DNA of 64,000 bases from positions 68,165,993-68,229,992 of the forward strand of contig CP092877.1 in NCBI GenBank assembly GCA_030710605.1, written 5' to 3'. Below the pieces are notes generated by a model. The model made no database searches. It was not told where the DNA came from and saw only the letters and a list, made by a program, of their open reading frames with translations. How positions within the stretch are numbered: position 1 is the stretch's first letter; every line of letters starts with the position of its first letter. The position numbers and the translations under genes are program-made. The stretch is from Cordylochernes scorpioides. Taxonomy: Eukaryota > Arthropoda > Arachnida > Pseudoscorpiones > Chernetidae. This document shows, in pieces, positions 3,087 through 60,434 of the stretch.

Positions 3087-3486
3087 AATCGCTCAACACT
3101 AGTCCATACTAGTGAGCTGGACTCCCCAGGTAGTTGGCGTTTTGTGCTCCAGAAACCTGGGTTATAAATATCTCTCTCTCTTTGTCTCTCCCTGAGATCT
3201 AGGTATTTATCAAAATATCTTCTAACCAATGATCTAAGTGATACTCTAATGTAAATAAATCATTGTTTTCATGTACCAATATATGTTATAATAGTAATTT
3301 AGGTTGACTTGGAAAACCAAAGAAGAATGGTTAGTTAAACGGGCTGTCAACAAGGCTTGTATTGTCATTATATTTTTATAAAACTTTACAAACATTGTTT
3401 CAGCAGATATCGAAACAATGTTGCCGTTATTTTTAAAAGCGCACGCGCATTCAAACAAATTTAGACATTTGGTTTATATATATACA

Positions 3487-3728
3487 TATAAAATAAAAGG
3501 ACTTAAAAGCGCGAATGTTTCTTTTATACATAAAACGAACTTCTACTGTCCTTACTGCGATGAAAAAATATATTGGGAGGGCTTGGCTCATCAGTGGTGA
3601 ACCCTCCCAGCGGTTTCGCCAATTTAATCCACCAGACCGCTTCTCAGAGCTCTAATACTGTATTGGATCATTCTGCTTTTATATGCTACACTGAAGGATG
3701 GAATCTTAGAAATGGTTTTCAAGTAAAC
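3487..3728. mobile_element. Fragment of the 373-bp ribozyme element
   Basis: Matches the left two thirds of the unit arrayed at 7214-8905. It is absent from the corresponding place in A2 and A3, so it is an A1-specific insertion that also removed the left end of the adjoining pogo MITE. Confidence 0.75.
3574..3640 (-). ncRNA. Split (permuted) hammerhead-like domain
   Basis: Same two-hairpin domain as in the 373-bp array: on the minus strand GCGGT-C-TGGTG, TTGGC-GAAA-CCGC, then CACCA-CTGATGA-GCCAA inside a GGGAGGG/CCCTCCC hairpin. All three helix pairings are intact here. Ribozyme activity is a hypothesis. Confidence 0.5.
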
Positions 3729-3891
3729 TATAGCGCCCCCTCTTGGGATTCACCAAAATAGGGTGCTATAGAGAGGGGGTGCTATAGACAGGTCACTTTT
3801 AATGTAAATCGCATCGTACTACGTATTTAAAATCGGGCGCTATAAAGAAGGAGGCGCTATTTAGAGGGGGCGCTATAGACAGGTTTAACTG
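3729..3891. mobile_element. pogo-like MITE, left end lost
   Basis: The right end is CGCTATAGACAGGTTTAACTG followed by TA, matching the intact 160-bp copy at 44491-44650. The interior repeats GCGCTAT motifs on both strands. No ORF. Confidence 0.75.
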
Positions 3892-5541: not shown

Positions 5542-5810
5542 GAATATCTCAACACGGTGTATTAAAATACGCAGTTTTAAATAGAACGCAAACTGGTTTT
5601 GAAAGTACGTATATCTACCGGTCGATTTATTCCACAACCTTGCTACTTATTTACATAATATACATGCAATTAATTAGGTGTAGATAATTAAACTAATTAA
5701 TAGAACCATTTTAGCAGACTGAATTTATAAATATGATGCGCGCCATCTGTTATCAGAAATTTTAACTATTTTTGACGCGTAGGATTCTTTTGAAATAAAA
5801 CAATTTTTTA

Positions 5811-5897
5811 CTGCCCTTACTGCAATGATAAAATAATGGGAGAGTTCACCACTGATGAGCCAGGCCCTCCCATTATTTTATCATTGCAGTAAGGGCA
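5811..5897. mobile_element. Palindromic MITE with the CTGATGA hairpin, copy in A1
   Basis: A near-perfect palindrome (arms CTGCCCTTACTGCAATGAT / ATCATTGCAGTAAGGG) whose loop is CACCA-CTGATGA-GCCAG. Arms and loop are related to the 373-bp ribozyme element but the GTC/GAAA hairpin is missing. The solo LTR at 5898 split its right end. Confidence 0.75.
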
Positions 5898-6099
5898 TGT
5901 TGACTTTGCTTAGAATTATTAATGAAACTGATTCCAATAATTATTAATCAAACATTATATTTATTGATTTACAAGAGAGAGAACAAAATATAAAAGGGAA
6001 ACTAATATTAAACAAAGGAACTTTTTTTTTGGTTAGCGCCTATTTACCTGTGAGCTTACACACACTCTGTGGTAACAATTAATTAATATATATACAACA
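5898..6099. mobile_element. Solo LTR, 202 bp
   Basis: Starts TGTTGACTTTG and ends ATACAACA, with a 5-bp target duplication GGGCA (5893-5897, 6100-6104). The empty site is preserved in A2 (near 46891-46900). No internal region remains. Confidence 0.8.
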
Positions 6100-6104
6100 G
6101 GGCA

Positions 6105-7197
6105 GTAGAAAATTACCCACGAAAACCATCTGATATGAAGATAAGTATTCATTCAAAACCGTTATCATCCCATACTTGTGGCGACATGTTTCTATCTGTT
6201 TAGAATCAGATCGAGAAATCATCAAGTTTCGCTGGCACTCTGCTATTTAGTTTTTGATGTTCGCTGGAAATCAACAACCAAATAATCTGAAGTTGTTACG
6301 CAGACTTTATCATCATCGATGCTGACGTCACTCACTACGCTTCAGACTTTTCTGTTTTGATTTTTTCGCTCGCTTGTTTTTACAACATTTGTATTGGAAC
6401 AAGTCGTTCCTTAAAAATAAATAAATATATTAATATATATCAAATGGAATGTCCTCGTAACTACAAAATAAGTGAGTACAAAACAACTTGGAATCTTTAA
6501 ATAGAAACATCGTATTTTGCTAAGCCTATCAGAAGTCCAATAAAATATTTTGACTAAAATCTACGTTTCAAAAATAGTTCAAATTTTCTTATTTATAAAT
6601 AAGATTAGATATCAGCTGAAACCATTTAAACTCTTCATTTCTAACATTTCACACACAATGACTCTTTGTTAACCTTTTCAAATAAAACCAATTTCACGAT
6701 GTTTTAAAGATTTATTGTTTTCCTTGAACTGAGCGACAGAGGGTCACTGAAACGGAGTTTAAAAGATGTAGTTAATGTCTAATCATTAACTAATTAAGGT
6801 TCTTTTATACACTGCCGTCCTGAGGACAGGACAGGTGGGACAGTTAATCCAGGCGCTCGATATGAAAGAGCGCATCAAGAAAGCCGCAAAGTATCAAATA
6901 ATTCTTGCTACCGATTTATTTTTTATGGAATTCCTGTCGCTCAACTACGCCACAAATGGCTGCTCCCATTTTATAATTGTAATATATGTATATATGTTGA
7001 TCTGTTTTGTTTAAAGATACTATATCAGTGACATATTATATTATTACTTTACTCTGTTTTGATTAGAAAGAAATCGAACGTTTATCATCATCATTATTAA
7101 AGACTTTGTTTATAATGTGTATGTGTGCAAGAATGGTGAAACAATAAAATAATTACAGTAGCATAAAATTTCGTATATTTTCTTTTTCTTTTAAAGA
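6105..7197. other. Repeat A non-coding sequence
   Basis: Shared with 46900-47990. AT-rich. No gene, RNA or element boundary recognised. Confidence 0.5.
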
Positions 7198-7294
7198 TAT
7201 CTAAATATATAAAATAAAAGGATTTAAAAGCGCGAATGTTTCCCCTATACACAAAACGAACTTCTACTGTCCTTACTGCGATGAAAAAATATAT

Positions 7295-7361
7295 TGGGAG
7301 GGCTTGGCTCATCAGTGGTGAACCCTCCCAGCGGTTTCGCCAATTTAATCCACCAGACCGC
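7295..7361 (-). ncRNA. Split (permuted) hammerhead-like domain, unit 1
   Basis: On the minus strand, hairpin 1 is GCGGT...ACCGC with loop C-TGGTG-GATTAAA-TTGGC-GAA. Hairpin 2 is TGGGAGGG...CCCTCCCA with loop TT-CACCA-CTGATGA-GCCAA-G. Loop 1 TGGTG pairs with loop 2 CACCA (helix I) and loop 1 TTGGC pairs with loop 2 GCCAA (helix II). Closing stem GCGGT/ACCGC is helix III with A15.1-U16.1 and a GTC cleavage triplet. Every hammerhead core segment is present, but in the order GTC-GAAA-CTGATGA instead of GTC-CTGATGA-GAAA. Function is hypothetical. Confidence 0.5.
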
Positions 7362-7667
7362 TTCTCAGAGCTCTAATACTGTATTGGATCATTCTGCTTT
7401 TATATGCTACACTGAAGGATGGAATCTTAGAAATGGTTTTCAAGTGAACTATGGACATAAGCTTATAGGACATTAGAATTACATTCAAATATTTGCTTCG
7501 AGCAATGCTCTTCAGCAAACTATAAAGACAAGGCCAGTTAGGCATAAATTAACACAAAGCAATAACGCGCCATCTATATATATAAAATAAAAGGATTTAA
7601 AAGCGCGAATGTTTCCCCTATACACAAAACGAACTTCTACTGTCCTTACTGCGATGAAAAAATATAT

Positions 7668-7734
7668 TGGGAGGGCTTGGCTCATCAGTGGTGAACCCTC
7701 CCAGCGGTTTCGCCAATTTAATCCACCAGACCGC
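7668..7734 (-). ncRNA. Split hammerhead-like domain, unit 2
   Basis: Identical to the domain one period upstream. Confidence 0.5.
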
Positions 7735-8040
7735 TTCTCAGAGCTCTAATACTGTATTGGATCATTCTGCTTTTATATGCTACACTGAAGGATGGAATCT
7801 TAGAAATGGTTTTCAAGTGAACTATGGACATAAGCTTATAGGACATTAGAATTACATTCAAATATTTGCTTCGAGCAATGCTCTTCAGCAAACTATAAAG
7901 ACAAGGCCAGTTAGGCATAAATTAACACAAAGCAATAACGCGCCATCTATATATATAAAATAAAAGGATTTAAAAGCGCGAATGTTTCCCCTATACACAA
8001 AACGAACTTCTACTGTCCTTACTGCGATGAAAAAATATAT

Positions 8041-8107
8041 TGGGAGGGCTTGGCTCATCAGTGGTGAACCCTCCCAGCGGTTTCGCCAATTTAATCCACC
8101 AGACCGC
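8041..8107 (-). ncRNA. Split hammerhead-like domain, unit 3
   Basis: Identical to the domains one and two periods upstream. Confidence 0.5.
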
Positions 8108-8413
8108 TTCTCAGAGCTCTAATACTGTATTGGATCATTCTGCTTTTATATGCTACACTGAAGGATGGAATCTTAGAAATGGTTTTCAAGTGAACTATGG
8201 ACATAAGCTTATAGGACATTAGAATTACATTCAAATATTTGCTTCGAGCAATGCTCTTCAGCAAACTATAAAGACAAGGCCAGTTAGGCATAAATTAACA
8301 CAAAGCAATAACGCGCCATCTATATATATAAAATAAAAGGATTTAAAAGCGCGAATGTTTCCCCTATACACAAAACGAACTTCTACTGTCCTTACTGCGA
8401 TGAAAAAATATAT

Positions 8414-8480
8414 TGGGAGGGCTTGGCTCATCAGTGGTGAACCCTCCCAGCGGTTTCGCCAATTTAATCCACCAGACCGC
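8414..8480 (-). ncRNA. Split hammerhead-like domain, truncated unit 4
   Basis: Complete domain in a unit that is cut shortly after it, at the junction to the inverted unit. Confidence 0.5.
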
Positions 8481-8719
8481 TTCTCAGAGCTCTAATACTG
8501 TATATAGATGGCGCGTTATTGCTTTGTGTTAATTTATGCCTAACTGGCCTTGTCTTTATAGTTTGCTGAAGAGCATTGCTCGAAGCAAATATTTGAATGT
8601 AATTCTAATGTCCTATAAGCTTATGTCCATAGTTCACTTGAAAACCATTTCTAAGATTCCATCCTTCAGTGTAGCATATAAAAGCAGAATGATCCAATAC
8701 AGTATTAGAGCTCTGAGAA

Positions 8720-8786
8720 GCGGTCTGGTGGATTAAATTGGCGAAACCGCTGGGAGGGTTCACCACTGATGAGCCAAGCCCTCCCA
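8720..8786 (+). ncRNA. Split hammerhead-like domain, inverted unit
   Basis: Plus-strand copy: GTC at 8723-8725 (predicted cleavage after 8725), GAAA at 8743-8746, CTGATGA at 8766-8772. Confidence 0.5.
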
Positions 8787-9027
8787 ATATATTTTTTCAT
8801 CGCAGTAAGGACAGTAGAAGTTCGTTTTGTGTATAGGGGAAACATTCGCGCTTTTAAATCCTTTTATTTTATATATATAGATGGCGCGTTATTGCTTTGT
8901 GTTAATATCTAAATATATAAAGTGCAATTTCTTATAAAATAACTTTCACTATTAATCTTCACCCTATAATAGAAACATATCATATGTCTATTACAGATCA
9001 CATCACTGCCACTTAGAAGTATGATAT

Positions 9028-9283
9028 TAATATAGGCTTAGCAAAAATACGATGTTTATTCTTAAGGATTTCTAGTTGTTTGGTACTCACGTAATTAGTA
9101 GTTACGAGGACATCCCTTTAGATAAAAACAAATATATATTTATTTAAGGAACGACTTGTTCCATTACAGATATTGTTAAAGCAAGCTAGCGATAAACATA
9201 ACAGCCAGTTTGAAGGTAGAAGTTGGAAGTAGTGTAATAGTGACGTGGCATCGATGATGATTAAAGTCAAAGTTTGTGTAACA
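9028..9283 (-). repeat. copia 3' LTR
   Basis: 256 bp, identical by eye to 13365-13620. In coding orientation it starts TGTTACACAAAC and ends CCTATATTA, so the 3' terminal dinucleotide is TA rather than the usual CA. Confidence 0.9.
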
Positions 9284-9294
9284 ATTCCCTCCTT
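9284..9294 (-). other. copia polypurine tract
   Basis: On the minus strand AAGGAGGGAAT lies directly against the 3' LTR start TGTTACAC, the expected primer site for plus-strand DNA synthesis. It overlaps the end of the pol frame. Confidence 0.7.
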
Positions 9295-11353
9295 ACTTTG
9301 GCTTTATTCCCACGATGCTGAGGCTCTCCAGGTGTTTCTTCATCTGGTCTCGGGATAGGTCCTTTGTGAAGATATCCGCCTCCAGGTCCTGGGATGGCTT
9401 GTACAGAAGGCAGATGTCTCTGGATTCATAACAGTCTCTTAAGAAGTGGTACTTTCTGTTGATATGTCTACAGCGACTGCTTTGTTTAGGGCTGGAGATC
9501 CAGTTGATCAATGACTGACTGTCTGTATAGATCGCAGTTGGTTTTTCCATGAAATTCCATTCTTCCAGCTCTCGTAACAGGTTTATTATCCACTTGATTT
9601 GACAGCAGCTTTCACAAGCAGCTATCATTTCCGCTTCCATTGTGGAGAGGGCAACGAGTGGTTGTTTACTACTTTTCCAGTCTATAGTTGCTTCGCCGAG
9701 CTTCAATACATATCCGCCGTAGGATTTTCCGTCATGAGTGGTCGACCAGCTGGCATCGGTGTAGGACTTCAGGATTCCAGTCTTCCCTCTTTCAAATTTC
9801 ACTCCTAGGTCAATTGTTCCTCGAAGGTATCTCATCACTCTTTTGATTGCTGTCCAGTGCATCTGTTTTGGTTGTCTGGAGTACTGTGAAAGTTTGCTAG
9901 TGATGTAAGCGATGTCGGGTCTGGTGTTAACAGCTAGAAACATTAGCATTCCGAGGGCTTCTTGGTAAGTGTGCTGATCACAATTGTCATCTTCAATATG
10001 ATTGTCCAAATTGATTTCTTTGGAACCTGGTGTTGGAACTTCCTTACAATTTTCCATTCCATATTTCTGTAATATTTGTTGTATATAGTGGCTTTGCTGT
10101 AGCGAAATTCCCTCCTTGTCTTGTATGATCTTGATTCCCAAAAACATGCCTTTACATGTTACATCCTTTATTTCCAGGTGATGTCTCAATTTATTGATGA
10201 ATCTGTTTGAGGTATCTTCAGAATCTGAGACAGTGATAAAATCATCAACATATATCCCTACATAGAAGTATTTGTCTTCATTCTTCCATTTAAATAGGCA
10301 AGGATCAGATTTAAGTTTTTCCAGTCCACAGTCATGAAGTACTTGACTGAATTTCTCATACCACGATCTTCCGGATTGAGGTAGACCGTAAATACTTTTG
10401 TTGAGTTTACAAACTTTGTTTCTGTCTTGGACAAATCCAGCAGGTTGTTCCATGAATATTGTGTTTTCAATGTTTCCATTTAGATAGGCTGCTTTCACAT
10501 CAAATAGTTTAATGACTGAATCTTTTGTTGCTGCCATTGACAAAATAGTCCTGAGGGTGGCATTTTTAATTACAGGGCTGAAACTTTCGTTGTAATCTCT
10601 TCCTGGGATTTGGTTGTATCCCATTGCAACACGTCTAGCTTTGTAAGTTTTGTTTTCTTGGTCTTTAGATATTTTGAACACCCATTTACTTTTGACAACT
10701 TTAGCGTTTACAGGTCTAGGTACCAGTTCCCATACTTGATGCGAGTACATGTTCTGTATTTCCTCAAGCATTGCGTTCTCCCAATGTTTCTTGTCTTCGC
10801 ATGCGATGGCTTCATCATAGTCTTTCGGAATGGTTTCATTCGTAGTAGCCAGAACGTAGTCATCGAATCTTTTAGGTATTGTTCGAGTTCTTTGTGGTCT
10901 GTCTGATCCACTTGACTCTGTCTGTCTGTTGATCATGGTATCTGGTGCTGGCTCTTCAATATCAACATCTGATAGAACATGATTGTCCAGTTGTTCATCC
11001 TCCTGAATGAAGAAATATGTGTCAGTGTCCGTATTATTATCACTTTGTTTTTCTTCCGAGTTGACATTATTGTTCTCTCTGAAGTGAATGTCTGCGGTTT
11101 CAAGAACGACTCTCGCTGTGATATCAAATACTCGATAAGCTCTTCTGCATCTTGAATAGCCTACAAATATTCCTCTCTTAGATTTAGCTTCTAGTTTGTG
11201 TCTTTGATGATTCTCGAGTTTATAGAAGACTTCACAACCAAATCTCATGATGTGAGAGACGGATGGCTTTTTACCTTTCCATTTTTCCATAGGGGTAGTG
11301 TCTGGGTCATTGGTTGTGGGAGTTAGATTGTACAGATATGCAGCTGTATTCAC
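9293..11353 (-). CDS. copia pol, reverse transcriptase and RNase H part
   Basis: A 686-residue frame beginning at a Met inside the integrase C-terminal region; the same frame is open upstream to about 11470 and contains the third integrase acidic residue (VERANR). The RT of the RVT_2 type shows KWVFKISK (223-230), catalytic DVKAAYL (285) and YVDD (368-371). RNase H shows YTDASW (531-536), a TMEAEM segment near 571 and a later YTDSQS. It would copy the element RNA inside virus-like particles in the cytoplasm. It is separated from the protease/integrase frame by a single-base deletion near 11470-11480, where coding should continue without a break. Confidence 0.9.
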   Translation of the reverse strand: MNTAAYLYNLTPTTNDPDTTPMEKWKGKKPSVSHIMRFGCEVFYKLENHQRHKLEAKSKRGIFVGYSRCRRAYRVFDITARVVLETADIHFRENNNVNSEEKQSDNNTDTDTYFFIQEDEQLDNHVLSDVDIEEPAPDTMINRQTESSGSDRPQRTRTIPKRFDDYVLATTNETIPKDYDEAIACEDKKHWENAMLEEIQNMYSHQVWELVPRPVNAKVVKSKWVFKISKDQENKTYKARRVAMGYNQIPGRDYNESFSPVIKNATLRTILSMAATKDSVIKLFDVKAAYLNGNIENTIFMEQPAGFVQDRNKVCKLNKSIYGLPQSGRSWYEKFSQVLHDCGLEKLKSDPCLFKWKNEDKYFYVGIYVDDFITVSDSEDTSNRFINKLRHHLEIKDVTCKGMFLGIKIIQDKEGISLQQSHYIQQILQKYGMENCKEVPTPGSKEINLDNHIEDDNCDQHTYQEALGMLMFLAVNTRPDIAYITSKLSQYSRQPKQMHWTAIKRVMRYLRGTIDLGVKFERGKTGILKSYTDASWSTTHDGKSYGGYVLKLGEATIDWKSSKQPLVALSTMEAEMIAACESCCQIKWIINLLRELEEWNFMEKPTAIYTDSQSLINWISSPKQSSRCRHINRKYHFLRDCYESRDICLLYKPSQDLEADIFTKDLSRDQMKKHLESLSIVGIKPK

Positions 11354-11412
11354 AGCTTCTGCCCAGAAGTGTAGGGGTAATTGGGAGTCTGCCAGAAGTG
11401 TTCGGCCTTTGT

Positions 11413-12516
11413 CTAATAGTGTTCTGTTAGCTCTTTCAACTCTCCCATTGCTTCTTGGGGTGTACGGTGTAGTTCATGTTTAATTCCTTTGGATTCTATG
11501 AAGGTTTCAAGGTTTTTATTGATAAATTCTGTTCCGTTATCTGTTCTAAGTCGTTTTAGTTTTGAGTTTAGCTCGTTTTCTCTCTTTACAATAAACTTCT
11601 TCAAAACTTCTGCTGCTGAGAGTTTATCTTTGAGAAATTCTACAAATATTCTCCTAGAAAATCCATCTACGATGGTCAAGAAATATTTACTTCCGCCCAA
11701 GGAGTTTATTCTCATTGGACCACAGAGATCGACATAAATGGCTTCAAAGGGGTAGCTTTCTTGATTGCTATCTGTGTGAACATAGGGTACTTTGGTCATT
11801 TTTCCCAAGGAGCAAGCATCACATTGATCAAGGGTACCATTTATAGAGTTCAAGCCTTTTAGAAGATTGTTCTTCAAAATCAGGTCTAATTTGTTGTCAC
11901 TAGGATGTCCTAACCTTCTGTGCCATGCAGTCCTAGAATTGTCCTTTGAAATCAAGCAATGTTCATTTGGGATATGAGTTGCTTCAGATGAACGTGATAG
12001 GTTCAATGTGTACATGTTACCATCAAAGTTGCCTGTTCCTATTAGTTTGTCATCAGAAGAGTATATGTATGCTCCTTCAGAATTCAAAAGAACAGAGTTC
12101 CCTCTTCTTACTACGCTTGGAATGGACATTAGATTTCCTTTCAGGTGTGGTACATGGAGGACATTATGCAGGGTTACAGCGTTGTTAAGTTTGTCCTTAC
12201 CTTGTACAGTAGCTTGGATTGATCCTGATGAGGCAGATTCGATGTGTCTTCCTTCTTCCGCCACTTGTATGCTTCTTCTCTCCTCCGTCTTGTGCTCGAT
12301 CCATTCACCATGGGAAGTCATGTGGCTTGTGCACGCAGAATCAATTATCCACACGTCCTGAGTCGTCGGGCGTTCCTCCCTTGTGATTACATGTAGTGCG
12401 TATTCTGAAGTGGAGTTTCTTCGTTGGGATGGTTCCTCCGTTCGTTCTTGTATTGCTGATCTGGCCGTGTCTTTGTTTTGTTTTGGTCCTTTATGGTAGT
12501 TCCTTGTACTGGCCAT
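11413..12516 (-). CDS. copia pol, protease and integrase part
   Basis: A 367-residue frame. Aspartic protease motif WIIDSACTSHM (57-67; DSA in place of the commoner DSG). GAG-pre-integrase zinc site WHRRLGH...CDAC (H199, H204, C232, C235). Integrase core with YVDLCGP (D263) and RTDNGTEF (D326). Near residue 350 the frame runs out of the integrase sequence and ends after a nonsense tail; the right continuation lies in the next frame, so a 1-nt deletion has split the integrase. The apparent start Met is probably not a real start: it lies just after the A8 run at which gag passes into this frame. Confidence 0.88.
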   Translation of the reverse strand: MASTRNYHKGPKQNKDTARSAIQERTEEPSQRRNSTSEYALHVITREERPTTQDVWIIDSACTSHMTSHGEWIEHKTEERRSIQVAEEGRHIESASSGSIQATVQGKDKLNNAVTLHNVLHVPHLKGNLMSIPSVVRRGNSVLLNSEGAYIYSSDDKLIGTGNFDGNMYTLNLSRSSEATHIPNEHCLISKDNSRTAWHRRLGHPSDNKLDLILKNNLLKGLNSINGTLDQCDACSLGKMTKVPYVHTDSNQESYPFEAIYVDLCGPMRINSLGGSKYFLTIVDGFSRRIFVEFLKDKLSAAEVLKKFIVKRENELNSKLKRLRTDNGTEFINKNLETFIESKGIKHELHRTPQEAMGELKELTEHY

Positions 12517-13241
12517 GTTATTTTTTTTGTTGTATTCTTTTGAATTCCTTTGTTGTCAGGGTTGAACCAACAGTCTTTCTTGAAATGTCCTTTTCTTTTG
12601 CAAATGAAGCATGACTTTTCTTTGAGTTGGTTGCCTGATGATCTGAAAGCATTTTCATGATTTTTGCTTCTGTCCTGTCTTTTCTTCTCGAAATCCAGTA
12701 GAGTTTGTCTCAAGTCTGGTAAGGAGATTTCTCTGTTTATTGACAGTGCTGCTGCGATCGTGTCAAAGTTAGGTGTGAGTCCTTCAACAATGTATCGTAC
12801 AAGTTCTCTTTCTGTTACTGTCTTTCCTAGCTGGGTGATCTCTTGTGCCAGTTTCTGTGCTCGTACAATATACATGTTAACATTTTCATTTGGGTTCAAT
12901 TTTAGTCTGGCTAGATCCAACATTAGGTCTATCCTTTTATTTTCTAGAGATCCTTCAAACCTTTTCTTTATGTCGTACCAAATTATTTTGGCCCTTTTAT
13001 CGCCTCGAAAGATGATTGTTAAGTCATCCGAAAGTGACAATATTATTAAGCTGTATGCTTCCCGATTCTTTTTCTTCCAAATATCATATTCTATTTTATT
13101 AATTGTAAAATCTGGCTCGTCATTAACAATTACGTCCTCGAAGAGATCTTTTGAATCTAGAATTGCTTCCATTTTCATGGACCACGTTGTATAGTTATTT
13201 TCTGTTAACTGTTCGATTTTTGCTAAGTTATGTGTATCCAT
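12387..13241 (-). CDS. copia gag (capsid-nucleocapsid)
   Basis: 284 residues starting MDTHNLAKIEQLTENNYTTW; the LTENNYTTWSMKM segment is typical of copia Gag (UBN2/DUF4219 type). A single CCHC zinc knuckle CFICKRKGHFKKDC lies at 211-224. It forms the particle that packages the element RNA. The protein overlaps the protease frame by 130 nt, and the pol frame is -1 relative to gag. An A8 run (plus-strand T-run 12521-12528) sits where the frames must join, so -1 slippage, a mutation or a base-calling error could all explain the break. Copia elements commonly have one fused frame, so the residues after the A-run in this frame are probably out of frame. Confidence 0.88.
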   Translation of the reverse strand: MDTHNLAKIEQLTENNYTTWSMKMEAILDSKDLFEDVIVNDEPDFTINKIEYDIWKKKNREAYSLIILSLSDDLTIIFRGDKRAKIIWYDIKKRFEGSLENKRIDLMLDLARLKLNPNENVNMYIVRAQKLAQEITQLGKTVTERELVRYIVEGLTPNFDTIAAALSINREISLPDLRQTLLDFEKKRQDRSKNHENAFRSSGNQLKEKSCFICKRKGHFKKDCWFNPDNKGIQKNTTKKITWPVQGTTIKDQNKTKTRPDQQYKNERRNHPNEETPLQNTHYM

Positions 13242-13342
13242 TTTTATTCAATTTTTTCTTTCTAAATTGGCGGTTAGTCCAATTATTTAATTTCTTTTTG
13301 ATTTAAATGGATCAATTGGCGGTTAGTCCAATTCGCGCGCCC

Positions 13343-13358
13343 AAACCACGCTCTGCTA
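13343..13358 (-). other. copia primer-binding site (initiator tRNA-Met)
   Basis: On the minus strand TGGTAGCAGAGCGTGG, starting a few bases inside the 5' LTR. It is complementary to the CCA end of animal initiator tRNA-Met (TGGTAGCAGAG plus partial matches beyond). Confidence 0.75.
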
Positions 13359-13364
13359 CCAAAT

Positions 13365-13620
13365 TAATATAGGCTTAGCAAAAATACGATGTTTATTCTT
13401 AAGGATTTCTAGTTGTTTGGTACTCACGTAATTAGTAGTTACGAGGACATCCCTTTAGATAAAAACAAATATATATTTATTTAAGGAACGACTTGTTCCA
13501 TTACAGATATTGTTAAAGCAAGCTAGCGATAAACATAACAGCCAGTTTGAAGGTAGAAGTTGGAAGTAGTGTAATAGTGACGTGGCATCGATGATGATTA
13601 AAGTCAAAGTTTGTGTAACA
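13365..13620 (-). repeat. copia 5' LTR
   Basis: 256 bp, identical by eye to 9028-9283. It carries the promoter in coding orientation (minus strand). Confidence 0.9.
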
Positions 13621-24031: not shown

Positions 24032-24224
24032 ACGTGTAAATTAGTTTCTAATTTGGAAAACATGGTGCAAGCCATGATAATCATGACAGGTAGTTTGAGA
24101 TAAGTTGTAAAAACAGCATTTATAAAAATGTAGTTTTACTTTGCACATGCAAGATGCCAGAGTGGTAGTTGTCTGTATTGATTGATGGGAATGAACTATG
24201 TAAGAATTGGTATCCATTAAACTC

Positions 24225-24468
24225 TATATATAAAATGAAATCGTTTGAGCACGAATGTTTCTTTTATACACAATACAAACTTCTACTGTCCTTACTGCGA
24301 TGAAAAATATATTAGGAGGGCTTGGCTCATCAGTGGTAAACCCTCCTAGTGGTTTTGCTAATTTAATCCCCCAGACTGTTTCATATATTTTTCATCGCAG
24401 TAAGGACAGTAGAGGTTTGTATTGTGTATAAAAGAAACATTCATGCTTAAATCCTTTCATTTTATATA
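24225..24468. mobile_element. TIR form of the 373-bp ribozyme family
   Basis: Inverted arms of about 85 bp (TATATAAAATGAAAT...TCGCAGTAAGGACAGTAG) surround a 67-bp centre that is exactly the split hammerhead domain. Here the element is a palindrome-flanked ribozyme with nothing else inside, and looks older than the 7.2-8.9 kb array. Confidence 0.7.
24313..24379 (-). ncRNA. Decayed split hammerhead-like domain
   Basis: CACCA-type strand, CTGATGA and GTC are kept, but GAAA has become AAAA and the helix I, II and III complements each carry uncompensated mismatches. Probably inactive. Confidence 0.4.
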
Positions 24469-24567
24469 CAGTTAAACCTGTCTGTAATATCTTTCAGAGT
24501 TATTGTCTGAATCCCGATATACATGCTGAAATATATAACTTCCTTAAGTTTTGTCCATAAGTGTATA

Positions 24568-30093: not shown

Positions 30094-31415
30094 GAGGTGT
30101 GTTCAAAAGTATCGCGAATTTTGAATTTTCGCGGGTTACGTATATTCGAATTTCCATCTTTTTGTGGCTTTATGTTGGTACTCATGTCTCTCACTTATGC
30201 TGACAAGCTCGGCCATTTTGAATGTTCACTTAATTGTTGACAGCTGCTTTGCTTGCAGGTGTTTTGGATCGTCTTCGATTTTTACCTATTAAAAAAAAAT
30301 GGATCAAAGAACCTGTATCAAATTTTGTGTGAAAATCGAAATTAAGTGCGCGGATGCATTCCGAATGTTGACTGTGGCATACGAAGAAGCTACCTTGGAC
30401 CGAAGCAACGTTTATCGGTGGTACAAAATGTTCTCAGAAGGCCGAGAAGATGTGAACGACGAAAAGCATGCCGGACGCCCGAGCACTTCAACAACAGACG
30501 AAAAAATTAATGAAGTGAAGAAAATGATATTGGCCAATCGTCGAATCACCATTAGAGAAGTTGCTGAGGACCTGAACATATCGATTGGCTCGTGCCATTC
30601 GATTTTTATCAATGATTTGGGCATGAGACGGGTCGCTGCAAAATTCGTACCAAAATTGCTCAATTGTGACCAAAAACAGCATCGCATGAACATTGCTAAT
30701 GAGATGTTGGACTCTGTCCGCAACGACCCAAATTTTCTCCAGAGGGTCATAACTGGTGACGAAGCGTGGGTTTTTGGTTATGACGTGGAAACCAAAGCTC
30801 AATCATCTCAATGGAAGCTGCCGCACGAACCAAGACCGAAAAAAGTGCGCCAAGTTCGGTCGAATGTGAAAGTTTTGCTGACAGTTTTCTTCGATTGCAG
30901 GGGCGTGGTGCATCATGAGTTCTTGCCACAGGGTAGAACGGTCAATAAGGAATATTACCTTCAAGTTATGCGCAATTTGCACGAAGCAATCCGCCAGAAA
31001 CGCCCGGATTTGTGGAAGAACAAAAATTGGCTTTTGCACCACGATAACGCCCCTGCTCACACATCGTTGCTTGTGCGCGACTTTTTGGCCAAAAACAACA
31101 CACTAATGATGCCGCAGCCACCGTATTCCCCAGATCTGGCCCCCTGTGACTTTTTCTTGTTCCCTAAACTGAAGAGGCCCATGAAAGGACGACGTTACGC
31201 TACGCTTGACGAGATAAAGACGGCATCGAAGGAGGAGCTGAAAAAGATTAAAAAAAAATGATTTTTTGAAGTGCTTCGAAGATTGGAAAAACCGTTGGCA
31301 CAAGTGTATAATATATCATGGGGATTACTTTGAAGGGGACAAAATAGGTATTCATGAATAAATAAATAATTTTGAAAAAACACAAAAGTCGCGATTTTTT
31401 TTTGAACATACCTCG
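30094..31415 (+). mobile_element. mariner element, nearly complete
   Basis: 1322 bp between TA duplications (30092-30093, 31416-31417). Terminal inverted repeats of about 30 bp: CGAGGTGTGTTCAAAAG and the complement of GAACATACCTCG. It encodes a D34D transposase and is inserted into a fold-back repeat fragment (TACCC before, TATGATTG after). Confidence 0.95.
30299..31261 (+). CDS. mariner transposase, C-terminally frameshifted
   Basis: 320 residues from ATG 30299. N-terminal paired helix-turn-helix region (residues 1-110, with GRPSTST linker at 59-65), then the DDE/D domain: TGDEAW (D154), HHDNAPAH (D249), YSPDLAPCDFF (D284), i.e. 34 residues between the last two acids, the mariner signature. 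The WVPHEL position reads KFVPKLL. It excises and reinserts the element at TA sites in the nucleus. The frame ends in a run of Lys codons at TGA (31259-31261). After a 1-nt shift in this A-run, the next frame continues with mariner-like sequence (FEDWKNRWHK) for about 35 codons to TAA near 31361, so the tail is lost by a homopolymer indel. Confidence 0.93.
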   Translation: MDQRTCIKFCVKIEIKCADAFRMLTVAYEEATLDRSNVYRWYKMFSEGREDVNDEKHAGRPSTSTTDEKINEVKKMILANRRITIREVAEDLNISIGSCHSIFINDLGMRRVAAKFVPKLLNCDQKQHRMNIANEMLDSVRNDPNFLQRVITGDEAWVFGYDVETKAQSSQWKLPHEPRPKKVRQVRSNVKVLLTVFFDCRGVVHHEFLPQGRTVNKEYYLQVMRNLHEAIRQKRPDLWKNKNWLLHHDNAPAHTSLLVRDFLAKNNTLMMPQPPYSPDLAPCDFFLFPKLKRPMKGRRYATLDEIKTASKEELKKIKKK

Positions 31416-39348: not shown

Positions 39349-40767
39349 CACTGTGTGACATTGAAAATGGAACACCAAGAAATAGTGGCCAGAAAATTAT
39401 GCAAATTTCAGGGTAGACGCGCCTAACCGAGTTATGCAAATGATGTAAAATGCGCAGCTCTCGTGCGCACATGGAGTAAGATATAAGGGAAGGAACTTGC
39501 AGAAAGGACAGTATTCGTGTCGTTATTTCTTCAAGGAAAATCATTGTATAAATTTTGTTCTTGTGTCAAAAGACACGTGTAATAACAGAGAATGCCAGGT
39601 CATCGTAAACGGAGGCAGTTCAAGCAGACAGACGCTTTTACGAGGGGCATGGTGATCGGACTGAAAAGGGCAGGTTGGTCCATACGTCAAATCGCAGCTG
39701 ATACACACCTTGGTGCGTCCACGGTGCACCGACTGTGGAGAAGATGGTTGGAACAAGGAAATGTGGCAATTTATAGGAATGCCGGTGCAACCAGAGTGAC
39801 GTCAGCACGTGTGGATCGGCGTATCCTTCGACAAGCAGTGGCGGCCCCACAAGCCACTTGTACCGCCATCCTGCAACATGTGCAAGACACCCTAGATCAT
39901 TTCATCTCGACCAGAACCATTTCCCGTCGATTAGTTGCTAATGGCTTGCACTCATGCCGTCCGCTAAGAAGACTGCCATTGACCCCACCGAATAGGCGCC
40001 AACGTTTGGAATGGTGCCGGGCTAGATCGACGTGGATGACGGAATGGCACAGGGTCGTGTTCTCAGATGAGTCGCGTTTCTGCTTGTCCAGTGATAGTCG
40101 CCGTGTACGCGTGTGGCGTCGACGTGGAGAAAGGTCCAATCCGGCAGCAATTGTGGAATGCCCCACCGTGCGACAACGTGGAATCATGGTTTGGGGCGCA
40201 ATCGCGTATGATTCCAGGTCACCTTTACTTCGTATTCAGGGCACTATGACGGCTCAACGATACGTTGATGATGTGCTGCGACCGGTGACACTCCCCTACC
40301 TTCAGGGGGTACCCAATGCCCTTTATCAGCAGGATAACGCCCGACCGCACACTGCTCGCATTAGCCAACAAGCTCTGCAAGATGTACAGATGCTTCCCTG
40401 GCCACCGTACTCTCCTGATCTCTCACCAATCGAGCACGTCTGGGACATCATTGGACGCCGTTTGCATGCCTTGCCACAGCCGCGTTCAGAAGACGAACTG
40501 TGGCAAATGGTTGAGAGGGAATGGAAAGCCATCCCTCAGGACGCCATCCGTACTCTGATTGACTCTCTACCTAGACGTGTTGCTGCATGCATCGCCGTCC
40601 GCGGTGGTCCTACTTGCTACTAAGCCGACGCCGTTCTCGCTCTGTATTATGACTATCATTTTGAAATAAAGATCACTTATTGTTCGTCCCTGTCTCTCTC
40701 TGTCTGCCGAGTTTCATCACTTTCTGGCCACTATTTCTTGGTGTTCCATTTTCAATGTCAGGCAGTG
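39349..40767 (+). mobile_element. Tc1-family element, apparently intact
   Basis: 1419 bp between TA duplications (39347-39348, 40768-40769). Terminal repeats of at least 47 bp differ at only two sites (CACTGTGTGACATTG versus CACTGCCTGACATTG). One uninterrupted transposase frame. It is the only element in the window that could be active as written. Confidence 0.95.
39592..40623 (+). CDS. Tc1 transposase, full length, DD32E spacing
   Basis: 343 residues. N-terminal bipartite helix-turn-helix DNA-binding region (FTRGMVIGLKRAGWSIRQIA, residues 16-35, then STVHRLWRRW) that binds the terminal repeats, then a DDE domain with VVFSDESRF (D159), YQQDNARPHTA (D248) and SPDLSPIEHVWD (E281). Only 32 residues separate D248 and E281, against 34 in typical Tc1 proteins. 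The length is normal for the family. ATG at 39592 is the first in frame and lies about 240 bp inside the element. It cuts the element out and pastes it into TA sites. No stop or frameshift seen. Confidence 0.95.
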   Translation: MPGHRKRRQFKQTDAFTRGMVIGLKRAGWSIRQIAADTHLGASTVHRLWRRWLEQGNVAIYRNAGATRVTSARVDRRILRQAVAAPQATCTAILQHVQDTLDHFISTRTISRRLVANGLHSCRPLRRLPLTPPNRRQRLEWCRARSTWMTEWHRVVFSDESRFCLSSDSRRVRVWRRRGERSNPAAIVECPTVRQRGIMVWGAIAYDSRSPLLRIQGTMTAQRYVDDVLRPVTLPYLQGVPNALYQQDNARPHTARISQQALQDVQMLPWPPYSPDLSPIEHVWDIIGRRLHALPQPRSEDELWQMVEREWKAIPQDAIRTLIDSLPRRVAACIAVRGGPTCY

Positions 40768-41248: not shown

Positions 41249-42889
41249 GTAGTCCCAATTATCAACAGTCTTAATTATCAGTAGTCTCACCTGTAGTCCC
41301 AATTATCTCTAGTCTCAGTTATCAAGAGTCCCAATTATCTCTAGTCTCAGTTTTCAGGAGTCCCAATATTATCTCTAGTCTCAGTTATCAGGAGTCCCAA
41401 TTATCTCTAGTCTCAGTTATCAGGAGTCCCAATTATCTCTAGTCTCAGTTATCAGCAGTCCCAATTATCTCTAGTCTCAGTTATCAGCAGTCCCAATTAT
41501 CTCTAGCCTCAGTTATCAGCATTCCCAATTATCTCTAGTCACAGTTATCAGCAGTCCCAATTATCTCTTGTCACAGTTATCAGCAGTCCCAATTATCTCT
41601 AGTTTCAGTTATCAGCAGTCCCAATTATCTCTAGTCTCAGTTATCAGGAGTCCCAATTATCTCTAGTCTCAGTTATCAGCACAGTCCCAATTATCTCTAG
41701 TTTCAGTTAACAGCAGTCCCAATTATCTCTAGTCACAGTTATCAGCAGTCCCAATTATCTCTAGTCACAGTTATCAGCAGTCCCAATTATCTCTTGTCAC
41801 AGTTATCAGCAGTCCCAATTATCTCTAGTTTCAGTTATCAGCAGTCCCAATTATCTCTAGTCACAGTTATCAGCAGTCCCAATTATCTCTAGTCTCAGTT
41901 ATCAGGAGTCCCAATTATCTCTAGTCTCAGTTATCAAAACAGTCCCAATTATCTCTAGTTTCAGTTAACAGCAGTCCCAATTATCTCTAGTCTCAGTTAT
42001 CAGCAGTCCCAATTATCTCTAGTTTCAGTTATCAGCAGTCCCAATTATCTCTAGTCTCAGTTATCAGGAGTCCCAATTATCTCTAGTCTCAGTTATCAGC
42101 ACAGTCCCAATTATCTCTAGTTTCAGTTAACAGCAGTCCCAATTATCTCTAGTCTCAGTTATCAGCAGTCCCAATTATCTCTAGTCACAGTTATCAGCAG
42201 TCCCAATTATCTCTTGTCACAGTTATCAGCAGTCCCAATTATCTCTAGTTTCAGTTATCAGCAGTCCCAATTATCTCTAGTCACAGTTATCAGCAGTCCC
42301 AATTATCTCTTGTCACAGTTATCAGCAGTCCCAATTATCTCTAGTTTCAGTTATCAGCAGTCCCAATTATCTCTAGTCACAGTTATCAGCAGTCCCAATT
42401 ATCTCTAGTCTCAGTTATCAGGAGTCCCAATTATCTCTAGTCTCAGTTAACAAAACAGTCCCAATTATCTCTAGTTTCAGTTAACAGCAGTCCCAATTAT
42501 CTCTAGTCTCAGTTATCAGCAGTCCCAATTATCTCTAGTTTCAGTTATCAGCAGTCCCAATTATCTCTAGTCTCAGTTATCAGGAGTCCCAATTATCTCT
42601 AGTCTCAGTTATCAGCACAGTCCCAATTATCTCTAGTTTCAGTTAACAGCAGTCCCAATTATCTCTAGTCTCAGTTATCAGCAGTCCCAATTATCTCTTG
42701 TCACAGTTATCAGCAGTCTTAATTATCTCTAGTCACAGTTATCAGCAGTCTTAATTATCATTAGTCTTACCTGTAGTCCCAATTATCTCTAATCTCAGTT
42801 ATCAGCAGTCCCAATTCCCTCTAGTCTCAGTTATCAGCAGTCCCAATTATCTCTAGTCTCAGTTATCAATAGTTCCAACTCCACGAAAC
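41249..42889. repeat. 32-bp minisatellite, expanded allele
   Basis: About 51 units of CAGTCCCAATTATCTC + TAGTCTCAGTTATCAG with variants (TAGTCACAG, TTGTCACAG, TAGTTTCAG). Marker variants recur at fixed distance: CAAAACAG at about 41937 and 42452, and CAGCACAG at about 42098 and 42613, both about 515 bp apart (16 units), which indicates higher-order duplication. Confidence 0.95.
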
Positions 42890-46069: not shown

Positions 46070-46603
46070 TGTTGCGTAGAAATAAAAACACATTCCAGAT
46101 GGAGAGAGAATGTTCTAGTAGAAAATGTAGAAAAAGCGGAAGACAACTGATTGGCCAATCTACAGCTATTGCGCAACGCTCGGTGCTGGCGGCTTTCTGA
46201 TTGGCTGACCAACCGTGACCGTTCTGGAAAGATCTACTCCGGGATATATAGGGATGAGAAACTCATGCCAGGGCGGAAGAAGAAAGATAAGAAAAAGGGT
46301 AGAAGAACGAAGCTACGTGGTGTACTCCAAGCAAGCTGCTGTCTCAAGAAGTCGGACTGCTGCTTACCGCCGACGCCGGTGTGCTTCCTGGAAGATTCTG
46401 GAAGGTTCTACGAACTTCTGTCTCCTGTTCTGCTTCTGCTTTCCCTCACTGTGCTGCAGTTGGTGGGTGTGTAACTGCTGTTTTCATTATTGGTGTTTTA
46501 TTTTTGCACTTTTCTGTAATTACTTTATCGATTAGGCTTAAATAAAGTCCTAAAGATCCTTTGTACCCACGGAAGTTATTCTTTGTCAACCAACAACGCA
46601 ACA
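46070..46603. mobile_element. Solo LTR, 534 bp
   Basis: Starts TGTTGCGTAGAAAT and ends CAACAACGCAACA, with a 4-bp duplication GTAC (46066-46069, 46604-46607). A1 and A3 have the empty site (GAAAGTACGTATATC). It contains GGGATATATAGG (TATA-like) and AATAAAGTCC near the 3' end, which suggests plus-strand orientation. Confidence 0.85.
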
Positions 46604-46810
46604 GTACGTTTATCTACCGGTCGATTTATTACACAAACTTGATACTTATTTACATAATATACATGTAATTAATTAGGTGTAGATAATTAAACTAATTAAT
46701 AGAACCATTTTTAGCAGACTGGATTTATAAATATGATGCGCGCCATCTCTGTTATCAGAAATTTTAACTATTTTTGACGCGTATGATTCTTTTGAAATAA
46801 AACAATTTTT

Positions 46811-46901
46811 TACTGCCCTTATTGCAATGATAAAATAATGGGAGGGTTCACCACTGATGAGCCAGGCCCTCCCATTATTTATCTTTGCAGTAAGGGCAGT
46901 A
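46811..46901. mobile_element. Palindromic MITE with the CTGATGA hairpin, copy in A2
   Basis: Arms TACTGCCCTTATTGCAATG and complement; loop CACCA-CTGATGA-GCCAG (CTGATGA at 46854-46860). Uninterrupted version of 5811-5897. Confidence 0.75.
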
Positions 46902-49228
46902 GAAAATTACCCACGAAAACCATCTGATATGAAGATAAGTATTCATTCAAAACCGTTATCATCCCATACTTGTGGCGACATGTTTCTATCTGTTTAGGAT
47001 TAGATCGAGAAATCATCAAGTTTCGCTGGCACTCTGCTATTTAGTTTTTGATGTTCGCTGGAAATCAACAACCAAATAATCTGAAGTTGTTACGCAGACT
47101 TTATCATCATCAATACTGACGTCACTCACTACGCTTCAGACTTTTCTGTTTTGATTTTTTCGCTCGCTTGTTTTTACAACATTTGTATTGGAACAAGTCG
47201 TTCCTTAAATATATATATATAAATAAATATATTAATATATATCAAGTGGGGGATGTCCTCGTAACTACAAAATAAGTGAGTACAAAACAACTTGGAATCT
47301 TTAAATAGAAACATCGTATTTTGCTAAGCCTATCAGAAGTCCAATAAAATATTTTGACTAAAACCTACGTATCAGAAATAGTTCAAATTTTCTTATTTAT
47401 AAATAAGATTAGATATCAGCTGAAACCATTTAAACTCTTAATTTCTAACATTTCACACACAATAACTCTTTGTTAACCTTTTCAAATAAAAAAAAAATCA
47501 CAATGATTTTAAGATTTATTGTTTTCCTTGAACTGAGCGACATTGAAACGGAGTTTAAAAGATGTAGTTGATGTCTAATCATTAACTAATTAAGGTTCTT
47601 TTATACAGTGCCGTCCTGAGGACAGGACAGGCGGGGCAGTTAATACAGGCGCTCGATTTGAAAGAGCGCATCAAGAAAGCCGCAAAGTATCAAATAATTC
47701 TTGCTACCGATTTATTTTTATGGAATTCCTGTCGCTCAACTACGCCACAAATGGCTGCTCCCATTTTATACTTGTAATATATGTATATATGATGTTCTGT
47801 TTTGTTTAAAGATACTATATCAGTGACATATTATACTATTACTTTACTCTGTTTTGATTCGAAAGAAATCGAACGTTTATCATCATCATTTATTAAAGAC
47901 TTTGTTTATAATGTGTGCAAGAATGGTGAAATAATAAAATAATTATAGTAGCATAAAATTTCGTATCTTTCACTTAAAGATATCTAAACATATAAAGTGA
48001 AAATTCTTATAAATTATAAAATAACTTTCACTATTAATCTTCCCCCTATAATAGAAACATATGCATATATGTCTATTACATATCACATCACTGCCACTTA
48101 GAAGTATGATATACTATACATTTTTAGTTGGATTTAGTGAGTGTACAAAATTTAAGACTTTCATATGTGGTCTGGAAGTATATTAAAATTTGATCACAAA
48201 AGATCAAAGGAAATATATAGAAATTATTCTAGTTATAACCACCCAGAGATCTGAAATTTTGTCAAATTTTTATTTATTTACTTAATATCTCTCTAATTAT
48301 AAAATAGCCATAACTAATGCAAATACTCATTTTCATAATTTATTCCGCAAATATGTAAATAGTTATATGTATATATTCTTTTTAGCCATTGTACCTGCAT
48401 TATAGTGCCAAGTTTGATGCTGTAATCACGCCTGTAGAAGGGTTTTTTGCCCGAAAGCTTGCTTTGATATATTTCTATTAAAAGAAACTCTTCTTCTTTT
48501 ATTTCGTCTTTTCGTCTAAATATTACCAAGAAGAATATTATAGTCGTTATCGTCAATTTGTAATGTTATCAGATTTTAACGGGGTGTGCCAAATTTCAAA
48601 CTTTGAGGTAATATGTAATTATGTTTAAAAATGATCACAAAATTTGAAAGGAAATGAGTATATTTCCAACTAACCTTCCAACCCAGAAGTCTGAAATTTC
48701 TGTCAACTTGCATCGCCATCAGGTTTGAGCAAGTATACAAAATTTCAGACTTCTTGGGGCTCTGTGTGTTAAAAATTGTTCACAATTTTTGTGGACAGGC
48801 ATGACAGACAAACAGACGGAGGGACAGACTTGAAAGCAAGTTAAATGAAAGCTTTTAAAAAGAATTATTTTGCGGTAGAAGTAAATGAGCATCACATACC
48901 GATGGTAGATATAGCGAGATTTTACAATAAGTCAACTTCAGCGATTCACACAATATTGAAGAAGAAAATGAATTAAGGGAATTAGATGCAGCAAAATGAG
49001 TCGCAAGTTAATCAAAGCAACGTCCACTTCTTCTAGAAGAATGTGCGAATAAACAAGAAGAAATAGTGATACAGTAGCCCAGAATTTTCTGCGAGAAGGC
49101 AAAGGAAAATTTGAAATGGGAAATGCTGCTTTACACTACAAGCGTTTTGGATTACGAGCATGTTTTAGAACAGAATATGCTCGCAAATTGAGGTAGCACT
49201 GTAGTATTCAACATAGCATAGAACATTA
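46902..49228. other. Repeat A non-coding sequence
   Basis: Counterpart of 6105-7197 plus 13626-14783, with the empty sites of the array (near 47985) and of copia (near 48110). No gene supported. Confidence 0.55.
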
Positions 49229-56906: not shown

Positions 56907-58082
56907 ATGAACATCAAGAAAGAAGCAACTACTCAGGTAGGTTCATTTTTTGTCCAACATCTACCTAGAAACCCCTCAATGTTCTCTGGTGAGGTTGTTG
57001 AAGATCCCCGTAGCTGGTTAAAAGGGTATGAACGTGTGGCGAAGCACAACCAATGGGATGAAACCCTTTGTCTCGCTAACGTTTATTTCTATCTAACTGG
57101 CACTGCTCTCAAATGGTATGAAAACAACGAGGAAAGCATCCAGACATGGACGGAGTTCATGTCACAATTAGAAAATGTATTTGGAAAAAATGAAAGCTCA
57201 AGACTGCGAGCTGAGAAAATACTCAAAACTCGCGCACAATTAAAAGGAGAAAGCACCGAATATTACATCCAAGACGTCCTGCGCCTTTGCAAAGAGGTAG
57301 ATCCACAAATGAATGAGGAAGATAAAATATCCCATCTGATGAAAGGGATAGCTGAGGAGCTCTACCAGGCACTTCTCCCAAGGGATGTGCATAACACTGA
57401 GCAATTCGTCACCGAATGTCGCCGGATTGAAAGCCTACACTGTAAGCGAGTGACCCCAACCAAATACGAGCGACTACCAAATGTGGCATCTCTCAGTGAT
57501 CATGATGACAGGGCAGATCTGTCATCTATGATCAGGCAAATTGTTTGTGAGGAGGTACAGCGGGCATTAGGCTCTACTCGAGAGGAACCAAAAATTTCTA
57601 CCATCGAAGATATGGTAAAGGAGGAGATTGGAAGAACCCTGGCGCCAATCTCAAAGCCTAGGAGAAGTTCCCCACAGAAGGAAAGACCCCGAGAGTTTTA
57701 TAATAATAGATATGTGGCCCAAACGATAAGACCGCAGCAGCCAAAACAAGTAAACGGAAGACGCGATACCAACGAATGGCGAACCACGGAAGGTAAGCCA
57801 ATCTGTTTCCACTGCGGACGCCCTGGCCACGTCGTGCGCTACTGCCGTGACAGGAGGAGAGAATATGAAGGAGAACAAACTTGGAATTACAAACAGAGAG
57901 ATAGGCTAGAGCCTAGAACATTCTATAATTCTCGGAGCAGCCAAGAGCCCAACGACGACCTGCCAAGAGAAAATAGACGCCGCTACCGAAGCCCCTCTCC
58001 TTACACTGGCCGAAAAGGACAATATTCGTCTCCTGATAGAAGACCCAGCCAGTCGCCTCGCCGTTCCCGTCAGGAAAACTAG
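56907..58082 (+). CDS. gypsy gag
   Basis: 391 residues, intact. Capsid region with [20 protein letters not shown] (26-45) and [14 protein letters not shown] (61-74), typical of metazoan gypsy Gag (Retrotrans_gag); one CCHC knuckle [14 protein letters not shown] (300-313); then an Arg/Ser-rich basic tail ([15 protein letters not shown] and after) that should bind RNA. It forms the particle and packages element RNA. The first in-frame ATG is used, 75 bp inside the LTR. Pol starts about 110 bp after the stop with no overlap, so pol expression would need re-initiation, readthrough plus shift, or splicing. Confidence 0.92.
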
Positions 58083-60430: not shown

Positions 60431-60434
60431 TCCA

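Follow-up and report, generated by a model that had tools for sequence, protein, structure and literature searches.

The window, a stretch of 64,000 nucleotides from the assembly of the pseudoscorpion Cordylochernes scorpioides (2.6 Gb in 24 contigs), contains at positions 7197-8921 an inserted retroelement, one of many copies in the genome, with a Penelope-like signature at its ends; each of its units carries the core of a hammerhead ribozyme with its blocks in the order cleavage site, GAAA, CTGATGA (S-G-C). We consider it highly probable that the locus represents the insertion of a retrozyme-like element of 372/373 nt, which was mobilised by a Penelope-like element (PLE) and whose tandem or circular RNA is processed by this type-SGC hammerhead. 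Although this kind of ribozyme and this type of host element are both known, their combination, an SGC hammerhead in an animal retroelement, appears to be new, as does the home of the ribozyme in a chromosomal, non-autonomous element of Cordylochernes scorpioides. The original prediction drew attention to the ribozyme and overlooked the insertion that houses it.

Anatomy of the locus and its hammerhead domain

The insertion is made up of 3.5 identical head-to-tail units of 373 bp (7214-8503, with the minus strand as sense), together with an inverted, divergent copy of 406 nt on the plus strand, which is 100% complementary to them and comprises one full unit and a tail (8501-8904). This tail, placed approximately at 8873-8904 (plus), is the segment between two inferred reverse-transcription start sites at unit positions ~367 and ~27. 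The 17-nt direct repeat ATATCTAAATATATAAA is found at both outer ends, as a left target-site duplication (7197-7213), which has a few nucleotides in common with the element end, and a right one (8905-8921). The hammerhead domain is present five times: in the three full minus-strand units (7295-7362, 7668-7735 and 8041-8108), in the partial unit (8414-8481, minus) and in the inverted unit (8719-8786, plus). Elsewhere in the window we identified a second, partial copy of the element (3478-3731, minus; 97% identity) with an intact domain at 3574-3641, and an old copy with an inverted arm (24222-24471, minus), the domain of which (24313-24380) is decayed.

The domain occupies 68 nt of each 373-bp unit, and its blocks can be read directly, 5' to 3', from the plus strand of the inverted unit. 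Block S (8719-8732) consists of the helix III strand AGCGGT (8719-8724), C17 (8725) and the helix I strand TGGTGGA (8726-8732); it is followed, after a linker, by block G (8738-8751), with the helix II strand TTGGC (8738-8742), GAAA (8743-8746) and the helix III strand ACCGCT (8746-8751), which begins with the last A of GAAA. Next come the 5' strand of a bridging stem, GGGAGGG (8752-8758), block C (8759-8777), with the helix I strand TTCACCA (8759-8765), CTGATGA (8766-8772) and the helix II strand GCCAA (8773-8777), and, beyond a single G, the 3' strand of the bridging stem, CCCTCCC (8779-8785). The resulting helix I has 7 bp, including one G.U, helix II has 5 bp and helix III has 6 bp, while the strands of the 7-bp bridging stem flank the CTGATGA block and join the far sides of helices I and II. 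Helix III is joined to the bridging stem directly (0 nt), and the linker between helices I and II is 5 nt long. A hammerhead is characterised by conserved core bases (CUGAnGA, GAAA and an A-U pair beside the site) and an NUH cleavage triplet; all the core bases are present here, including the G-C pair adjoining CTGATGA and the A-U pair adjoining the cleavage triplet.

Direct reading thus bore out the motifs and block order described in the original prediction for each unit, together with its view that the order is no circular permutation of the known hammerheads and that the core is split over two hairpins joined by double loop-loop pairing. The predicted cut also falls where it had been placed, between 7356 and 7355 on the minus strand (unit 1), which corresponds to 8725/8726 on the plus strand. 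The pairing of the helices holds as well; the lengths given for them had to be revised, to 7 bp for helix I and 6 bp for helix III, in a domain of 68 rather than 67 nt. When folded as a single strand, the domain forms two separate hairpins with some competing pairs inside the loops, the loop-loop pairing being a pseudoknot and as such outside the scope of the single-strand folding program. The duplex energies, in kcal/mol, are -8.8 for helix I with an eighth pair, -5.2 for helix II, -8.3 for helix III and -15.2 for the bridging stem with a flanking T-A pair (8 bp). The ATG within the CTG-ATG of block C opens a frame of 57 codons (MSQALP..., from unit position 263), for which no relative was found among 239 proteins compared.

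To gauge how often such an arrangement arises by chance, all six block orders were scanned for within 120 nt, with at least 5 bp in helix I, 4 bp in helix II and 4 bp in helix III, and with G.U allowed. On the two strands of the window this yielded six matches, all in S-G-C order, five of them in the locus and one at 3583-3641. A control scan of 100 Mb of first-order Markov sequence gave one loose match, in a different order; no match came up to the 7, 5 and 6 bp that helices I, II and III have in the observed domain. The claim that the three complementarities and the core motifs are very unlikely to have come together by chance is upheld by this comparison. At the loose threshold some tens of chance matches are expected in a 2.6-Gb genome, and such a match is hardly expected in a repeat whose lineage conserves exactly that stretch.

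Rfam 15 at its gathering threshold found one match in the whole window, a tRNA, and no hammerhead; a permissive scan of 6600-9600 likewise gave no hammerhead and one unrelated match (E 8.6). An assignment of the domain to type I, II or III was rejected, as the block order differs and no Rfam hammerhead model matches. Over the genome, Rfam Hammerhead_1 gave no match among the 74 of 285298 candidates that were scored, with control genomes likewise at zero, so that this outcome carries no information; an exact-pattern scan of viral contigs returned no match.

Several other repeats share the window. Copies of a larger repeat at 5604-6500, 46603-47391 and 61676-62163 each carry an extended hairpin, nearly perfect in its pairing, with the CTGATGAG block as its loop. 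Within them lie bridging-stem hairpins of a diverged subfamily with a CTGATGAGCCAG loop, at 5837-5879, 46839-46878 and, in decayed form, 61909-61951 (all plus). The larger repeat probably derives from an ancient insertion of the divergent kind, in which the two arms met within the bridging stem. A Copia-type element occupies 9032-13556 between repeats at 9032-9219 and 13369-13556, and its pol frame of 686 aa has many near-identical protein records within the species. A 32-bp minisatellite, AGTCCCAATTATCTCTAGTCTCAGTTATCAGC, is present in 49 copies at 41295-42868 and in 7 copies at 1631-1861, and open reading frames resembling, by eye, mariner-type and Tc1-type transposases and gypsy-type gag-pol are located at 30299-31261, 39592-40623 and 56907-60854.

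Conservation of the domain within the family

Genome searches with the window unit, an old copy and a diverged subfamily returned at least 164, at least 43 and at least 51 matches, respectively (40 of 1166 first-look candidates, 40 of 1986 and 40 of 536 being scored), where the numbers of candidates are not confirmed copy numbers. From 50 fetched loci with near-identical units, 38 insertion loci were retained after 10 overlapping ones had been dropped and L017, L020 and L022 pooled.

Among these loci, the least variable 67-nt segments of the unit start at positions 214-216 (tied), with a variability of 0.002 where the median is 0.011; low values, of 0.005 and 0.004, were also obtained for positions 151-180 and 271-300. 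Counted over site-locus cells, substitutions fixed at a locus number 5 in the domain (2094 cells) and 141 elsewhere (8856 cells), making them 6.7 times rarer in the domain, whereas mutations private to single units within arrays showed no such difference (47/10121 in the domain, 218/41819 outside; P 0.53). Set against each other in a two-by-two table, fixed and within-array changes give an odds ratio of 0.16 (P 9e-6). Because the loci share ancestry, counts of sites are safer figures than counts of cells: 6 of 68 sites in the domain vary among locus majorities, compared with 90 of 305 outside (P 2e-4), and a minor base present in at least two loci is seen at 1 of 68 and 26 of 305 sites, respectively (P 0.04). 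Conservation of the domain in the family is therefore strong, and, as evidence that lay beyond the reach of the original prediction, it lends support to the functional reading made there.

Among the locus representatives, the core motifs CTGATGA, GAAA and GTC are all intact in 37 of 39 from young copies and in 22 of 30 from the old subfamily, and the A-U pair beside the cleavage triplet is present in all 69. Departures from the consensus were also observed. The older subfamily (L054-L083) keeps the core and often has TTAGC in place of TTGGC, a C.A mismatch in helix II, and C.A at this third helix-II pair is found in 23 of the 69 representatives. A G.A in helix I is seen in four, a third helix-III pair outside standard pairing in 11, and AAAA in place of GAAA in six.

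A more distant comparison is provided by the diverged subfamily (L057, L091-L094), in four copies of which the domain is 90-93% identical to that of the window unit in an ungapped alignment, as compared with 72-81% of aligned columns, with gaps, in the flanks. In this subfamily C17 has become A, so that the cleavage triplet reads GUA, a change compatible with the hammerhead NUH rule. The helix-II pair 20-59 has changed on both sides, from UA to CG. At the helix-I pair 12-43, where G has become A, the five rows have A.C (three rows), A.A (one row) or, in L094, a standard A-U pair.

These changes were evaluated across 30 distinct domain sequences fitting the motif pattern (28 drawn from 177 matches, together with L093 and window positions 24313-24380), a set that omits badly decayed copies and the G8A form described below. 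In these rows 94.5% of 750 cells pair, compared with 33-55% in slid controls. The share of paired cells was reached by 1 of 500 shuffles, and the covariation score likewise by 1 of 500, figures that are no probabilities given that the rows are related. Three pairs have changed on both sides: one in helix II, seen in five rows, and one each in helix I and the bridging stem, each seen in a single row, with none in helix III; 122 of 500 shuffles reached three such changes, and 427 of 500 reached the number of further pair types. Covariation in stems I-III is thus thin. Compensatory changes in homologues, on which the original prediction had in part been made to depend, are present in helix II, at one pair in five of 30 rows from a single subfamily, and in helix I in the one row L094, and they stand beside uncompensated mismatches.

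The clearest fact contrary to a role for cleavage is an array at C24:62956383-62960585 (L017-L022), in which every full domain row reads CTGATAA, with G8 replaced by A (18 rows, some counted twice since L017, L020 and L022 overlap). L074 reads CTGATAA as well. As the change runs throughout the array, elements with a probably dead core have spread or been homogenised: insertion may do without cleavage, cleavage may have been provided in trans, or homogenisation of the array may have followed its insertion. The array constitutes a natural dead-core control.

Insertion signature and Penelope-like elements

The ends of the 38 insertions follow a consistent pattern. Of 63 outer sense ends, 35 fall at unit positions 365-373 or 1-8, 25 at positions 21-32 and three elsewhere, forming two clusters ~33 nt apart that point to start sites at unit positions ~367 and ~27. 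Two arms were found in 28 of the 38 insertions, and in all 28 they are divergent. By script, 21 of the 25 insertions with both arms complete end once in each cluster; alignments add L033 and L044 (ends at unit positions 27 and 26), leaving L039 and L049 as exceptions. Words of at least 8 nt are shared between the outer flanks in 23 of the 25 complete insertions and in 48 of 600 swapped flank pairs, the shared words having a median length of 12 nt and a range of 5-18 nt, and the target sites are, by eye, AT-rich.

At their inner ends the arms stop at scattered points, and a single one of the 66 inner ends comes within 5 nt of the predicted cleavage site. Nine of the 66 cluster where the bridging stem ends on its 3' side (unit positions 276-287), a place at which reverse transcriptase might have been halted by the folded domain; this signal is marginal, with a scan P of 0.04 for a 12-nt window, while widths of 8, 16 and 24 nt give between 0.09 and 0.21. 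From the divergence of the arms, whose sense 5' ends point inward, the copied RNA would seem to be the hammerhead strand. In several arrays, private variants are present in most or all units, and in L044 and L045 in both arms, a distribution explained by a circular or homogeneous multimeric template. A linear monomer template cut at the hammerhead site was rejected, since many arrays exceed one unit and the inner ends ignore the site.

This is the kind of signature reported for PLEs (PMC11167929): their reverse transcription begins at either of two neighbouring internal sites, leaving some genomic copies with an extra tail of 30-40 bp, and both target strands are cut and extended. PLE open frames of ~810 aa are present in the same genome, with at least 56 matches (51 of 80089 candidates scored). 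Among the 56 matches listed are four close opposite-strand pairs of PLE open reading frames, all divergent, and one locus that is tandem with a spacing of 2755 bp. The 373-nt unit is too short to code for a reverse transcriptase and a GIY-YIG domain. At L039:539-1781 a unit array is followed without a gap by a PLE reverse-transcriptase frame that lacks its 5' part, an arrangement that possibly records a template switch between PLE RNA and unit RNA, or an insertion into a PLE.

The 5' regions of five autonomous PLEs (L084-L088, at C6:24633300, C3:55767650, C12:87237500, C7:92205700 and C20:117250) contain a type-I hammerhead of minimal form (CTGACGA..GAAAC-GTC or GTT), which begins ~80 nt ahead of the presumed reading-frame start, and in all five the order is the ordinary C-G-S. 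Minimal type-I hammerheads of PLEs were reportedly described by Cervera and de la Pena in 2014 and by Lunse et al. in 2017. In L088, at a divergent junction, the type-I hammerhead is found on both strands. Comparison of the unit with the five PLE 5' regions revealed no similarity beyond weak, probably chance, AT-rich matches, and on this ground the idea that the unit is a deletion derivative of the PLE clade examined was set aside.

Taken together, these data suggest the following path. A non-autonomous, tandem element of 372/373 nt would be transcribed as a multimer, in which the hairpin bearing the cleavage site and GAAA (helix III) would meet the CTGATGA hairpin (bridging stem) through helices I and II. 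Self-cleavage after GUC, or after GUA in one subfamily, would then split the transcript into units, and these may be ligated into circles, as in retrozymes. The reverse transcriptase of a PLE, most likely the agent of mobilisation, would copy the tandem or circular RNA from either of the two start sites ~33 nt apart, and copying onto both target strands would leave divergent arrays flanked by duplications.

How the two hairpins meet raises a further possibility. By our own estimate from A-form dimensions, the far ends of helix III and the bridging stem would lie ~60 Angstrom apart in one hammerhead. Taken with the junction of 0 nt, a span of this size would call for docking between two units as an antiparallel hammerhead pair: by this estimate it is difficult for a single molecule to make the four helices together and keep the standard hammerhead fold, although published members with 0 nt exist, and partners from two units would make the antiparallel pair without strain. 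The energies of the paired strands do not decide between the two forms. We regard it as unlikely, though worth entertaining, that the SGC hammerhead works in this way as a domain-swapped dimer, the site/GAAA hairpin of one unit docking with the CTGATGA hairpin of another unit or RNA. If it does, cleavage would need two units, matching a multimeric element that is inserted as head-to-head pairs of RNA copies, and the geometric puzzle raised in the published account of type-SGC ribozymes (PMC10085705, main text) would be answered. A relative of the PLE enzyme is predicted to be a dimer in the portion of PMC11167929 consulted.

Alternative readings and comparison with known systems

The most serious alternative is that the domain is kept as a structured binding site for a PLE reverse transcriptase or another protein, its core being a relic or one that no longer cuts. 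The G8A copies and the copies with helix mismatches at several loci fit this, as do inner ends that disregard the cleavage site and their cluster at unit positions 276-287, which would suit a strong RNA structure of any function; moreover, hammerhead mutants of one PLE left insertion in vitro unchanged, according to the part of PMC11167929 used here. Binding alone, however, need not preserve CTGATGA, GAAA and GTH, and the conserved bases include every base of the hammerhead core, while between subfamilies the cleavage nucleotide has changed from C to A, an allowed change, and one helix-II pair has changed on both sides. We therefore hold a binding site to be an improbable account of the domain.

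Two further accounts would make the hammerhead match incidental. Foldback-type DNA transposons, whose inverted ends are long and repetitive internally, would produce two inverted arms such as those of 28 of the 38 insertions, yet the flank words vary in length (5-18 nt), the two kinds of outer end lie ~33 nt apart with mostly one of each per insertion, the arms break off at various inner points, and among the PLE open reading frames listed the four close pairs on opposite strands diverge as well. The variable duplications and the two-ended signature led us to reject this reading, which we consider very unlikely. Chance similarity, by which a repetitive non-coding unit merely happens to hold three hammerhead-like strands, draws on the weak covariation and the lack of an Rfam match, but it has to contend with simulated sequence in which 100 Mb gave no equally strong match and one loose match, and with a lineage-level constraint that peaks in exactly the stretch of the domain; it is extremely improbable. 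A PLE-mobilised element with an SGC hammerhead thus remains the reading we prefer.

That the architecture is new, as the original prediction supposed, is contradicted by the literature. Eckert et al. 2023 (PMC10085705, main text, as for the statements that follow) defined six block orders and predicted 583 type-SGC hammerheads, of which five cleaved in vitro and one had its four stems, including a bridging stem between stems I and II, validated by compensatory mutants. Some members have 0 nt between stem III and the bridging stem, which was called a geometric puzzle. The permuted motifs were almost all exclusive to metatranscriptomes, with a genome of a known organism given only for a GCS candidate. 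Within the open-access PMC literature, subscription papers and preprints lying outside this scope, we found no report of a type-SGC hammerhead in genomes or retroelements.

The present domain places an SGC hammerhead, a type earlier metatranscriptomic and without a host organism, in the chromosomes of an animal, in many copies and inside a retroelement with a readable insertion mechanism. If the domain-swapped reading is correct, this would be the first animal retroelement known to us to be driven by a non-circularly permuted ribozyme. A named species, natural mutants (the G8A array and the GUA subfamily) and a class of enzymes from which the helper may come make its function testable. Two hammerhead permutations moreover occur in one genome, C-G-S in PLEs and S-G-C in the small element, and their coexistence bears on the origin of non-circular permutations.

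Compared by main-text structural statements rather than by sequence alignment, the pseudoscorpion domain agrees with the type-SGC ribozymes (HRIMA-1 motif and variants; PMC10085705) in its S-G-C order, core bases, stems I-III and bridging stem, in the short linker between helices I and II, and in the 0-nt junction between stem III and the bridging stem that a few published members share. It differs in a linker of 5 nt, as against typically 3 in those published, and in being chromosomal, within an animal retroelement, where the published ones are metatranscriptomic. Metazoan non-LTR retrozymes (Cervera and de la Pena 2020, PMC7229834, in the part drawn on here) are likewise non-autonomous and consist of 150-450 bp units in tandem, a size range that includes the 373-nt unit. 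Their hammerheads, however, are of type I rather than SGC, circular RNAs have been shown for them whereas the pseudoscorpion element is known from DNA, and divergent two-armed arrays are not among the features described for them in that part of the source. With PLEs, as characterised in the corresponding part of PMC11167929, the element shares tandem arrays, two adjacent start sites (the tail of 30-40 bp), extension of both target strands, AT-rich targets and a hammerhead shortly upstream of the start sites; unlike PLEs, it encodes no reverse transcriptase or endonuclease, and its hammerhead is SGC where those in five of five autonomous PLE 5' regions of the same genome are C-G-S.
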